This document shows positions 13,414 to 20,405 of a stretch of 20,956 nt of DNA, one piece after another. The notes beneath the pieces are model-generated. The model saw only the letters and a program-made list of their open reading frames with translations. It did no database searches and had not been told where the DNA came from. Location of the stretch: IMG/VR virus record IMGVR_UViG_3300042564_000609, positions 1-20,956 of that record. One strand, written 5' to 3'. The stretch is from a virus. Positions within the stretch are counted from its first letter, which is position 1, and every line of letters starts with the position of its first letter. Position numbers and translations under genes: made by a program.

Positions 13414-15351
13414 TTAGATATTGATTTCACATCCTCCTGGGCCACTACATGCAGCAATAGCACCAAAGTCTACAGTGTCATCTAATTCCATCACCTTTGT
13501 TAAGTCAATGGATTTTAATGATTTAATGCGGTTGTTGTATTCTTCTTCTGTGATGTCTTCAAAAGGAGCTTGAGAATAACTACCTCCAAAATAAGGCAGC
13601 ACTGACAAACCATTGTATACATCTCGATTGGTCCACATCCAATTACCTACAGCTTGCCATTCATTTAACCAGCCCTCTTTTGATAATGTAAATTGACTTC
13701 CTTTACCATCAGACATGTTAATAGAAGTGTATTTTCTATCATTATCAATAGAGATGGTAGCACTTACATTATGTGTGTTAGCACCATTGTTATGACCTGC
13801 TTTAACCCACTCTGTAGAGAACTTTTTAACACGTTCTAGTGTATCAAGTGCTGTCTCTGTACGTAGAATAGATCCTTCTGGAGCTGCAACAGGAATTCTT
13901 ACACACACTGTATCCTTAGGACGTAACACATCATCTTCACATAGTTCAGGATGGTTAATCTCTAAGTACATAGCAATGTCTTCATTCTTGTTAAATCTCA
14001 TTGTACGTAGATAGTGAGGAGCATGCCAAGCATGAATACCACTAGCTGTACCTAATACAAGGCTAGTTGTACCAGAAGGCTTAATACATGTAATACGAGC
14101 TGCTTCATTAGTACCAATAAGAGCTGATAGATCTCTGTTCATTGTCTTAGCTGTATTAGCCACTAGTTCTAGGTCATACTTCAAGATTTCTCCTGAACCA
14201 ATACCAGTCATACCAATACCCAATAGAGCATCTTTCTGTGTAGTCTTTTGCCAGATAGGACGTAAGTAATGGAAATCAAAGAATCCTGCTTGTAATGTAC
14301 CAAAGAATGCAGCAATTGCTACTCTCTCATTAAGATCATCTTGATCTTTAATATCAGATACATTCACTTCACATAGGTTACAGAATTGGAATGGACGTAA
14401 TCCAATTTCACAACAAGGATTAGTTCCCCAATCTAGGTCGTTAGACCAATAGATACCTGGTTCACCACTTCCTGATGCTTCAATTCTTTTCCATAGAGAC
14501 ATGAATTCTTCTTCACTCACCTCACCTCTTTTAAGGACAGCTGAGTTATTACTTCTACCACGCTGTTCATTAGTCTCCCACCAGTCACCATACTTACATG
14601 TAATCATTTCCTCATCATCATGGCTGAATAGGCTAATCATAGCACTTCTTCTAATACCACCTGCAAGAACACTATTAGCAATGTGACACATAATATCATG
14701 GCATTCTAGAGGAGATAGTTTACTACCATCTTCTTTACGCTCCATAATAGCATCTATGTGAGCTAATGCAATCTTTAATGGTTCTGGACCAGGTGCTTTA
14801 CCACCAGCTGTTACAAGTCTAGCTCCTTTCTCACGGATAGCTCTAAAGTCAAACTTAGGCTTTAAACCACCCTCAAAATAGAACTTCATTAACACCTTCA
14901 CAGCATCAGCCCATCCCATAATACTATCCTCAATAAGATAGTTCTTATGCTTATAAGACTCTTGTTTCTTAATAGCTGGTAATTGAGCTACATGGTGCTT
15001 CTGTACAGAAAAACCAACACCTGAACCACCTAATAATAAGAACATAGTCTCACTGAAGCTATACAGACTATCCACTGGCAGATAAGCACAGTTATATCCC
15101 CTAGCATTATTTACTTCCATAGCTGGACCAGCAAACTGAAGGGCTCTCATAGAAGGTAGCACCTTCTTATCTCTGATAAACTTCGCACTCTCTACAATAG
15201 CATCTTGTAATTTAGGATATTTCTTGATCATCATTGTTTGATATCTATCCACTATCTCATCCCAGGTTTCTCTTCTTTTGAGTTCTGGGACATACTTCGC
15301 ATATTTACTAAAAATCGTGATTTTACTCAACGCATCTAATCCTAAATCCAT
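13414..15351 (-). CDS. nrdJ: Class II (adenosylcobalamin-dependent) ribonucleotide reductase
   Basis: The 645-residue single-chain enzyme reduces ribonucleotides to deoxyribonucleotides, using adenosylcobalamin to make the thiyl radical. The finger-loop region reads TNPCCEIGLRPFQFCNLCEVN, containing the NPCxE radical cysteine and glutamate, plus a partner cysteine; the other redox cysteine is in RGYNCAYLPV. GGSGVGFSVQ and KPSGTTSLVLGTASGIHAWH are typical core motifs. The C-terminal CSGPGGC supplies the cysteine pair that re-reduces the active site. No small radical subunit gene is nearby, consistent with class II. I reject a start at 15426 because it would run through a terminator and promoter; the ATG at 15351 has the leader AAAACAAAACAAAAC. 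Confidence 0.93.
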   Translation of the reverse strand: MDLGLDALSKITIFSKYAKYVPELKRRETWDEIVDRYQTMMIKKYPKLQDAIVESAKFIRDKKVLPSMRALQFAGPAMEVNNARGYNCAYLPVDSLYSFSETMFLLLGGSGVGFSVQKHHVAQLPAIKKQESYKHKNYLIEDSIMGWADAVKVLMKFYFEGGLKPKFDFRAIREKGARLVTAGGKAPGPEPLKIALAHIDAIMERKEDGSKLSPLECHDIMCHIANSVLAGGIRRSAMISLFSHDDEEMITCKYGDWWETNEQRGRSNNSAVLKRGEVSEEEFMSLWKRIEASGSGEPGIYWSNDLDWGTNPCCEIGLRPFQFCNLCEVNVSDIKDQDDLNERVAIAAFFGTLQAGFFDFHYLRPIWQKTTQKDALLGIGMTGIGSGEILKYDLELVANTAKTMNRDLSALIGTNEAARITCIKPSGTTSLVLGTASGIHAWHAPHYLRTMRFNKNEDIAMYLEINHPELCEDDVLRPKDTVCVRIPVAAPEGSILRTETALDTLERVKKFSTEWVKAGHNNGANTHNVSATISIDNDRKYTSINMSDGKGSQFTLSKEGWLNEWQAVGNWMWTNRDVYNGLSVLPYFGGSYSQAPFEDITEEEYNNRIKSLKSIDLTKVMELDDTVDFGAIAACSGPGGCEINI

Positions 15352-15375
15352 GTTTTGTTTTGTTTTTAATTGGTT

Positions 15376-15405
15376 AAAAAAAGGGGGTTGCAAATGTACA
15401 ACCCC
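15376..15405 (-). terminator. Terminator whose loop is a promoter -7 box
   Basis: On the - strand, GGGGTTG (15405-15399) pairs with CAACCCC (15390-15384) across the eight-base loop TACATTTG, then C and seven T (15382-15376). It ends the transcript of the MazG-like gene at 15437. The opposite orientation also gives a stem followed by AG and five T, so it may work both ways. Confidence 0.75.
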
Positions 15406-15421
15406 AGTTTTTATAAACCAA
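15391..15421 (-). promoter_or_regulatory. Bacteroidota-type promoter for nrdJ
   Basis: TTG (15421-15419) and TACATTTG (15398-15391) on the - strand are separated by 20 bases, as in the two + strand promoters. The -7 box coincides exactly with the loop of the terminator hairpin. Transcripts would start in the 3' arm, so they would lack the 5' arm and escape termination. Confidence 0.65.
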
Positions 15422-15436
15422 GACATTTCAAAAATT

Positions 15437-15706
15437 CTACTTAACTAAATCTCTTATTTTCATTCCTAATTCAGCATCGTTTGGATGATTTCTAACTAAG
15501 TTAGTTAGTTCCTTATTCTGCTGCATTAGTTTCTCTAAATAAAGCGTGGCATCCATTAGTTCTTCCTGTAAATGCTGTAGAAAGTTGTCTTTATTATTAG
15601 TTTCTAATGTAGTACCATACTTGGCTTTTCCTAATTCACTACGCTTTGCGTATTTCATAAGAACATCCATCACTATCTCATCTGTTACAGTTGTTTGTTC
15701 ACTCAT
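15437..15706 (-). CDS. MazG-like all-alpha NTP pyrophosphatase-type protein
   Basis: The 89-residue helical product contains RSELGKAKYGTTLETN, followed by FLQHLQEELMDATLYLEKLM. Glu48, Glu49 and Asp52 form the EExxD motif that binds magnesium in the MazG/dUTPase-like all-alpha superfamily. Short proteins with KYGTTL...HLQEEL(M)DA are common in phages. They are presumed to bind or hydrolyse nucleotides, though many are untested. Only one EExxD motif is present and no second metal site is visible, so activity is uncertain. It lies just upstream of nrdJ in a block concerned with nucleotide supply. The start overlaps the previous stop by four bases. Confidence 0.7.
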   Translation of the reverse strand: MSEQTTVTDEIVMDVLMKYAKRSELGKAKYGTTLETNNKDNFLQHLQEELMDATLYLEKLMQQNKELTNLVRNHPNDAELGMKIRDLVK

Positions 15707-18351: not shown

Positions 18352-18749
18352 TTCTTTTCTAATTTTGTTTTTACATCATGACATTTCTCACATAGCACCT
18401 GTAGATTATCTAGTTCACAGAACAGACGTTCTACAAATCCTGCTAAGTCCTCTTTACAGTTGAGACTACCTGCAGGCTTAATGTGATCTACGTTAATTTG
18501 TTTCTCTGGAAACCATTCTTTACAGCTATTGCATTGATATTCAAACTTTTGTCTCTTACTGGGACCTTTATATGCCCTACGAGCTTTCATCTTGCATTCT
18601 GTAATAGGTTTCCACCATCTAGATTTCTGTCTCAAAGCACTTCTAATGAAGCTCCAGAAAGCTGATTCTGTCATAGTACCAGCATTTCTCATCTTTGGAC
18701 TTTTAGCTCTAGGTATTTTTGCTCTTCTCTTTGTTGCGTTCTTTTTCAT
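18348..18749 (-). CDS. HNH endonuclease with two CxxC braces
   Basis: The 133-residue product has a basic N-terminus, then MTESAFWSFIRSALRQKSRW. YQCNSCKEWFPEKQINVDHI carries the first CxxC (73-76) and the DH pair (88-89). CELDNLQVLCEKCHDVKTKL carries the HNH Asn (115), the second CxxC (120-123) and His124. All catalytic residues are therefore present. This form is common in phages, where it may be free-standing homing or packaging-linked; no terminase lies next to it here. It opens a - strand transcript after the rIIB-like gene. Confidence 0.9.
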   Translation of the reverse strand: MKKNATKRRAKIPRAKSPKMRNAGTMTESAFWSFIRSALRQKSRWWKPITECKMKARRAYKGPSKRQKFEYQCNSCKEWFPEKQINVDHIKPAGSLNCKEDLAGFVERLFCELDNLQVLCEKCHDVKTKLEKK

Positions 18750-18762
18750 AAGCTTAATATAA

Positions 18763-18797
18763 GACCAGGGATTTTAGCCCCTGGTCCTACAAAGTTA
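18763..18797 (-). promoter_or_regulatory. Hairpin and candidate -7 box between rIIB-like and HNH genes
   Basis: On the - strand TAACTTTG (18797-18790) fits TAnnTTTG and begins with the TAA stop of the rIIB-like gene. GACCAGGG (18786-18779) then pairs with CCCTGGTC (18770-18763) across an eight-base loop. No TTG is found at -33 and the T tail is weak (TTATATTAAG), so both promoter and terminator calls are tentative. Confidence 0.4.
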
Positions 18798-20405
18798 GTC
18801 AATATTTACGATTCTCTTAGAGATTTCTTGTCTTATTTCGTCAAGGTTCTTAACGATTTTAAGCACTTCTACAGCAGATAAAGCAGGGAGATTAAACTCA
18901 TACTTCTTAGCTTCTGCAATAAAGCCTTCTCTAGCTTTTGTACCTAAATTTTCCAATTCGCGAATTGCATAGCTCTCATCAAGCTCCATTGTATCAAAGT
19001 CTAGATCATGTAAGATTTCTGTTGCTTCTTCACGAGGAACAGTCATAATTGGTAAATACTCATAGCATCTACCTTTAGACTCACCAATACCCACAACCTT
19101 CATTGGATTGATAAGTACAAGTACAGATGTATCACCACAACCTACATAATGAATCTCATCAGATGTGAAGTGAAGACCTTCAGCACCACAATCATCAGTA
19201 TTCCATCTACACTGCTCCATAGGCATGTTCACTGGTCTACCAATTCTGATGTCAAATGTCTTTGTGTGAGCATCTGTAAATCTATTCTCTGCTCTATTAG
19301 GCAAATCAAGATAGAGGTCTGTTAAGTTACCAATTCTTTCACCATGGTTAACAGATGTCATTTCTTCATATTCACCAGCTCCATCACATTCTGGACATTC
19401 TATGTTTTCTTCCTCATTGTCTTCATCTGGAACAAACTTATAACCATCACAATAAGAACACTCAACCATTTCTGACTTATACAAAGCATCTCTGTGAACC
19501 ATTTTGTATTGACCATCATCTTGTAAGAATACAAAATAATCAGATGGGTTCTTTTTCCATACAGCTTTAGTTTTATTGTAAGCATTGCTAATGAATTGTA
19601 CAAGCTCTGTAGATCCATGTAATGTTACAACGTTACGTAATGCTACAAAGAATCCTTGTTTGGTAATACGGAAGCTATTCTTCTTTAGGAAGTTGTATAG
19701 CTTGTCAGCCACCTCAGCTCTAGGATTTAAGCAACACCACATAAAGAAACGCTTAAGAGATTGATACTCTTCGTCTTCTTGTATAAGTTCATTCACCTCA
19801 TCAATTTCTCTATCTGTTACATTATCCATAGAGTTGTAACTGTGAAGTCCAATGATGCGTAAGAACTCATCTACCATCAAAGGTGGGATGCTTCTGTTGA
19901 TTCCCTTGATATAGAGACTACCGTCTTTCATCTCAAAATCATCAAACTTAGCTAGATACTCAGCACCTTTCTGAATAGCCTTAGCTTTCTCATATGCAGC
20001 CTGTGCTTCCTGCTTCTCTTTTAGTATATCTGGAGAACCTACAAGGGTCAACAAACAAGCTTCTGTTTTACATTCTCTGGCATTATTAAAGTCTTCTGGT
20101 GTAGCTTTAGACTTAGTGATGATAGAACCATCGTTAAGCACCACTGTAAGTACATCATTCACAATCTTAATGTTGGAATAAGGCTTAGGTAAAATTGTAC
20201 TAGATGATGTACTGATTGTAGTGGACTGAAATGGAGACCACCTATCATAAGGTAGTACATAAGAGGAATAATCTGTAATAGTTTTCTCTTGGTCATCCAT
20301 TCTTTCTAATGTCTTCTCTAATTTTTTAACTTCAATCTCATGTTGTAATTCATCTAATTGCTTTTGTTTCTGGCTTTTGAACCAGCTTAAACTGAATAGT
20401 CCCAT
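18795..20405 (-). CDS. rIIB-like: rIIB-like protein with DnaJ-type zinc motif
   Basis: The 536-residue product shows the phage rIIB outline. A small domain IKIVNDVLTVVLNDGSIITK (79-98) resembles the rIIB N-terminus. The C-terminal region reads DIRIGRPVNMPMEQC, then EGLHFTS and VLVLINPMKVVGIG, typical of rIIB. Ahead of these, CSYC (316-319) and CPEC (337-340) with following DG/DGxG residues form a DnaJ-like zinc site. An N-terminal coiled-coil part (about 13-40) precedes the first domain and is an addition relative to T4 rIIB (312 residues). rIIB functions in lysis timing and exclusion responses in T4; here the role is inferred. The leader is AAAACAAAAAACAAAACACA. Confidence 0.75.
   Translation of the reverse strand: MGLFSLSWFKSQKQKQLDELQHEIEVKKLEKTLERMDDQEKTITDYSSYVLPYDRWSPFQSTTISTSSSTILPKPYSNIKIVNDVLTVVLNDGSIITKSKATPEDFNNARECKTEACLLTLVGSPDILKEKQEAQAAYEKAKAIQKGAEYLAKFDDFEMKDGSLYIKGINRSIPPLMVDEFLRIIGLHSYNSMDNVTDREIDEVNELIQEDEEYQSLKRFFMWCCLNPRAEVADKLYNFLKKNSFRITKQGFFVALRNVVTLHGSTELVQFISNAYNKTKAVWKKNPSDYFVFLQDDGQYKMVHRDALYKSEMVECSYCDGYKFVPDEDNEEENIECPECDGAGEYEEMTSVNHGERIGNLTDLYLDLPNRAENRFTDAHTKTFDIRIGRPVNMPMEQCRWNTDDCGAEGLHFTSDEIHYVGCGDTSVLVLINPMKVVGIGESKGRCYEYLPIMTVPREEATEILHDLDFDTMELDESYAIRELENLGTKAREGFIAEAKKYEFNLPALSAVEVLKIVKNLDEIRQEISKRIVNID

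Follow-up and report, generated by a model that had tools for sequence, protein, structure and literature searches.

How can one short stretch of DNA, in a group of Bacteroidota-type phages, both end the transcript of one gene and begin that of the next? The question is raised by a 46-bp segment upstream of nrdJ in IMG/VR virus record IMGVR_UViG_3300042564_000609, all 20,956 bases of which were analysed and are called here the window. According to the original prediction, the eight-base loop of a terminator hairpin (15391-15398) is a perfect TAnnTTTG on the - strand, with TTG 20 bases upstream, and these coordinates were verified. We consider it likely that the segment is an intrinsic terminator and a housekeeping, sigma-A-type Bacteroidota promoter written over each other.

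Layout of the segment upstream of nrdJ

The gene downstream of the segment encodes adenosylcobalamin-dependent (class II) ribonucleotide reductase, which was assigned by its match to PHROGs phrog_367 (E 8e-117); the protein also matches the Pfam barrel domain, more weakly. The start codon is placed at 15351, not at the ORF-caller start 15426, because the ATG-GAT-TTA-GGA start there is kept in relatives. Named phages with a similar nrdJ all fall below 60% identity, and no cultured close relative was found among the named phages compared by this gene. The features are arranged as follows, in the direction of transcription.

15437-15706, - strand: co-directional gene of 89 amino acids upstream of nrdJ, whose transcript is the one the terminator would end
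15419-15421, - strand: -33 element TTG (TTGG), 20 bases 5' of the -7 box
15399-15405, - strand: 5' arm of the terminator hairpin, GGGGTTG, within the promoter spacer
15391-15398, - strand: -7 box TACATTTG, the nominal 8-base hairpin loop, assigned by the sigma-A consensus TAnnTTTG (PMC9723704)
15384-15390, - strand: 3' arm of the terminator hairpin, CAACCCC
15386, - strand: predicted +1 of the nrdJ mRNA, within the 3' arm, with A at 15388/15389 as the alternative start
15376-15383, - strand: C followed by a T7 tract, where the upstream transcript is predicted to end
15352-15386, - strand: A-rich nrdJ leader of 35 nt, unstructured in folding when the 5' arm is absent
13414-15351, - strand: nrdJ

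The -7 box perfectly matches that of the Bacteroidota sigma-A promoter. The hairpin with its T7 tract is GC-rich, and the stem-loop spans 15405-15384 on the - strand; RNA folding adds U.G and A-U pairs to the stem, which leaves a 4-nt CAUU loop and not one of 8. The segment resembles an intrinsic (Rho-independent) terminator in its GC-rich stem, its covarying arms, the T-tract directly after them and its position 3' of a co-directional gene. It differs from one in that the 5' arm is also the promoter spacer, and in that the loop and the start of the 3' arm carry the -7 box. With the Bacteroidota sigma-A (sigma-ABfr) promoter, TTG(-33)/TAnnTTTG(-7), it shares the exact -7 consensus, TTG 20 bases upstream and an A-rich leader, whereas the nrdJ spacer and start region lie in a GC-rich hairpin, the predicted +1 is C, and TTCG and TTTA variants of the box occur with matching changes in the stem.

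Two further properties of the region were noted. The distance from the stop codon of the 89-amino-acid gene to the stem is 31 nt in the window and 17-41 nt (median 25) in 50 relatives. In E. coli, a trailing ribosome represses a terminator when this distance is <27 nt (PMC4824070). The distance at nrdJ lies close to that limit, so termination may partly depend on translation of the upstream gene, by an analogy carried across phyla. Beyond the T-tract, AACCAA (15375-15370) is complementary to TTGGTT (15421-15416, - strand), as is often the case among the relatives, and the two might form outer arms of the hairpin; the corresponding pair in another lineage is TTGTT/AACAA. Pairing of this kind arose in 2 of 20000 permutations, a figure that ignores shared ancestry and draws on few lineages, and the complementarity in the leader may or may not matter.

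Recurrence and covariation among relatives

Scanning with NrdJ yielded 80 viral loci, to which a divergent relative, used as the query of a second scan, added more. The pattern TTG-N18..22-TAnnT[TC][TC][GA] was matched upstream of nrdJ at 103 loci, which represent 50 distinct gap sequences. The spacing between TTG and the box is exactly 20 in 49 of these 50, and the box ends with TTTG in 37, TTCG in 8 and TTTA in 5. Since this tally is conditional on the pattern, the relatives were recounted without it, on the 80 loci of the first scan less 2 that do not cover the gap. The element precedes nrdJ in some form in 76 of the 78 covered loci (68 in place by the pattern, 8 displaced or variant) and is absent from 2; many of the loci are closely related, so the 76 do not represent 76 independent cases.

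The 8 displaced or variant loci comprise four with an inserted HNH gene, one with TTG changed to TAG and three in which the hairpin surrounds TAATTTGC. In the last group (L067, L071 and L076) the hairpin is retained, and TAATTTGC agrees equally well with TAnnTTGY, the SM5 motif of Flavobacterium psychrophilum (PMC9723704), and with a shortened sigma-A box. At the loci with an inserted gene (L016, L024, L026 and L046), the HNH endonuclease gene lies between the element and nrdJ, and the element is found 5' of it, about 560-580 bases before nrdJ. The element thus behaves as a unit, as it precedes the HNH gene where that gene is directly upstream of nrdJ. Two of these loci (L016 and L024) keep the hairpin and the box with a T-tract degraded to TAAAATTT, which is not predicted under a pure terminator role. 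A clade whose nrdJ genes are more distant, at about 65% identity, lacks the element, which marks the boundary of its range. Four lineages without the element (L074, L201, L232 and L233) have in common, 40-60 bases or so 5' of nrdJ, a stretch with TATTTAT that may be a promoter of a different class.

The pairing of the arms was analysed with chimeras, in which gap sequences were cut inside the box and the 5' and 3' halves of different relatives were joined. The mean folding energy was -18.5 kcal/mol for native halves vs -10.7 kcal/mol for chimeras, and the native mean was reached by none of 20000 permutations; the test is conservative because chimeras of close relatives still fold well. Compared with dinucleotide shuffles, the native hairpins had a mean z of -5.8. 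Double changes were also counted within groups of sequences sharing one register of hairpin and box: 27 double-change cells vs 9.8 in shuffles in a group of 15 sequences, and 18 vs 4.6 in a group of 10 that includes the window. In both registers the covariation score exceeded all 500 shuffles (0/500) and dropped sharply when the partners were slid by one column.

The register of the hairpin relative to the box varies from 0 to 8, the loop from 3 to 11 bases, and the sequence of the stem is free. A T-tract follows the stem in 50 of 50 gap sequences, with 5 to 8 T in the best 8-mer. The box usually has its final bases in the 3' arm, and the TTCG and TTTA changes are sometimes matched in the 5' arm. 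The statement that the box is exactly the loop therefore holds in the subgroup of the window and fails elsewhere, where the hairpin is shifted by 0-8 bases and the box runs into the 3' arm. It was likewise proposed that loop and box are conserved together; what is kept is the box and the 20-base spacing, and the stem is re-made around them. The converse case, relatives keeping the stem and losing the loop sequence, was not found when the gap was compared, as the box stays while stems change. A register that slides while the TTG-to-box spacing is fixed points to two superimposed signals under separate constraints. It appears that evolution has retained the stop and start signals together, the box and its spacing being held and the stem re-made, and the fixed spacing, covarying stems and sliding register argue well for the terminator-plus-promoter reading.

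Chance, distribution and rival readings

The TAnnTTTG box alone is no commoner in the window than expected by chance (32 vs 27), and so a lone box proves nothing. Among 518 distinct terminator-like hairpins of the collected loci, the box overlaps the loop in 38, as against 2-12 for 12 letter-permuted decoys; the nrdJ site, recurring in different relatives, accounts for most of the 38. The full motif TTG-N19..21-TAnnTTTG was found 106 times in the non-coding DNA of 12 near-complete relatives, compared with 7-47 for 13 decoys. Hairpins of >=7 pairs enclose 46/106 of these promoters, a share no higher than the 49% obtained when the flanks are shuffled, and stable ones surround 16 of the 106 (vs 5.6%), half of the 16 being nrdJ. 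In the 12 phage genomes taken together, 17 terminator loops contain the box, many of them at nrdJ, vs 0-7 for decoys. The exact pattern of hairpin plus box was met in just 7 stretches across all genome contigs, several of which are plain Bacteroidota terminators. In two Bacteroidota MAGs (about 0.37 and 0.35 Mb scanned) and in the named phages crAss001, phi14:2, FCL-2 and MA9V-3 (three of them scanned in part), terminator loops were not enriched in the box, and superposition as a general design of the host was rejected. A scan with the E. coli sigma-70 consensus was set aside as irrelevant to a promoter of the Bacteroidota type.

The superposed layout is essentially confined to the nrdJ locus, plus one sporadic second locus (L039:1885, L046:1405, L047:1423 and L080:2582, with variants in L056, L072 and L081). 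There, a long terminator-like hairpin with a TTTTTATAA tail encloses TAnnTTTG, and the gene that directly follows encodes a protein with a basic stretch and the motif RNAGTMTESAFWSF at its N-terminus. At what is apparently the corresponding locus in the window (18749-18800, - strand), in L023:2224 and in L029:694, a TAACTTTG-like box (TAATTTTA in L029:694) is found just 5' of the hairpin; with the box a few bases before the hairpin, a transcript would begin in the 5' arm. The recA terminator (window 13110-13085, - strand) and its homologues have arms that vary yet remain paired, with a recurrent UUCU/GUCU loop, and a separate TAnnTTTG-like box follows tens of bases on. This tandem arrangement, found in the same phages, resembles that at nrdJ in ending one operon and restarting the next gene; the recA signals stand apart, whereas those at nrdJ are superimposed. 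A recurrent promoter at G005:26543, G006:60770, G011:70889, G003:24981 and G004:99801 carries an inverted repeat such as TAATAAATTTATTA in the interval from -33 to -7, with a G-run after it, and looks like an operator-controlled one. Two other TAnnTTTG boxes, at G007:91452 (-) and G007:66569 (+), lie within long stable hairpins that have no T-tract.

One alternative to the superposition is that the segment is a terminator only, with TAnnTTTG as a fortuitous product of an AT-rich loop and nrdJ expressed by read-through. The chance-level frequency of the box in the window and its lack of enrichment in terminator loops of two host genomes are consistent with this. Nevertheless, the almost invariant spacing of 20, the retention of the box while stems change, the rarity of decoy boxes in the same loops and the genome-wide enrichment of the full promoter motif in these phages make it improbable. 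A second possibility is that the hairpin is a structural element of the promoter, a cruciform or single-stranded hairpin of the coliphage N4 type that a phage polymerase recognizes, rather than a terminator. Hairpin and box do occur almost always together, and the weak T-tracts of L016 and L024 accompany an intact hairpin. One would, however, expect the register of a recognition hairpin to be constant, whereas the observed one slides by 8 bases with a variable loop and stem sequence; it is followed by a T-tract in every gap sequence, and a comparable hairpin is missing from most of the sites where these phages carry the promoter motif. We regard this reading as quite improbable. The palindrome might finally be an operator for a dimeric repressor, or part of a metabolite-sensing leader such as a B12 riboswitch, which would suit the B12 dependence of NrdJ and the cobalamin control that ribonucleotide reductase genes can be under; this is very improbable, given that the arms vary with compensation instead of being conserved as half-sites, that a gap of 85 nt is too short for a cobalamin riboswitch, and that no Rfam family matched the nrdJ element at gathering score (best chance-level matches, E 0.12-0.15).

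Predicted transcription and its meaning

The terminator-plus-promoter reading makes definite predictions on the ends of both transcripts. In Flavobacterium psychrophilum, the TAnnTTTG box occupies -12 to -5 (PMC9723704). When this published sigma-A geometry is applied, the predicted +1 falls within the 3' arm in all 50 relatives, in agreement with the earlier proposal that RNA started here lacks the 5' arm; with that arm untranscribed, the nrdJ mRNA would be unable to form the hairpin. The predicted +1 is C in 50/50. As C is a poor initiating base, the true start is perhaps 2-3 nt upstream, on A, and with either start the 5' arm is left out of the transcript. The leader has 30-36 nt, and its mean MFE in the 50 relatives is -2.0 kcal/mol, compared with -22.2 kcal/mol when the hairpin is included. 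The T-tract ends about 11 nt after +1, and the 3' ends of the upstream RNA are accordingly predicted to overlap the 5' ends of the nrdJ RNA by this length.

The transcript ends, the efficiency of termination, the strength of the promoter and the working of the element in the infected cell are thus read from DNA features, and the following course is proposed. RNA polymerase arriving from the upstream operon would transcribe the full hairpin and U-tract and stop at about 15376-15380. On the DNA, the holoenzyme would recognize TTG at -33 and TACATTTG at -7, with the 5' arm held in the spacer between them, and initiate at about 15386-15389, within the 3' arm. The resulting nrdJ mRNA, having no 5' arm, would form no terminator hairpin, so the polymerase would escape, and the leader of the mRNA, about 35 nt long and rich in A, would be open. 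In this way nrdJ would be uncoupled from the upstream operon at no cost in intergenic DNA.

A further step is conceivable, in which the segment acts as a reinitiation device. In single-molecule studies, E. coli polymerase that has terminated usually remains bound to the DNA and is able to start again close by (PMC6978380; PMC6978322). By analogy, a polymerase halted at the U-tract, about 10 bp from the nrdJ start, could be recycled directly into nrdJ, and initiation there would be partly fed by the upstream operon and track it, even as the RNA is cut. We consider this doubtful. The likeness lies in a polymerase kept on DNA after RNA release that restarts at a nearby promoter; the difference is that recycling was demonstrated for the E. 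coli enzyme, mostly in vitro, whereas at nrdJ geometry alone suggests it. The zero distance between terminator and promoter is interesting in the light of the E. coli data, but is no proof of recycling at nrdJ.

Terminators, promoters and the overlap of the two are not new as ideas. A partial literature search returned no description of a -7/-10 box held in an upstream terminator hairpin with covarying stems, which is weak evidence of novelty. What the locus offers is a single stretch of DNA carrying a stop at the level of RNA and a start at the level of DNA with a clear evolutionary record, clear because the two constraints can be separated: the stem is re-made around a box and a spacing that stay fixed. 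If the upstream and nrdJ transcripts really overlap at their ends by about 11 nt, ordinary RNA-seq would miscall the region as one read-through operon. The zero distance also makes the element a natural substrate for asking if post-termination recycling of polymerase matters in cells. It is also a warning that terminator-like hairpins overlapping promoters in compact phage genomes should not be dismissed.
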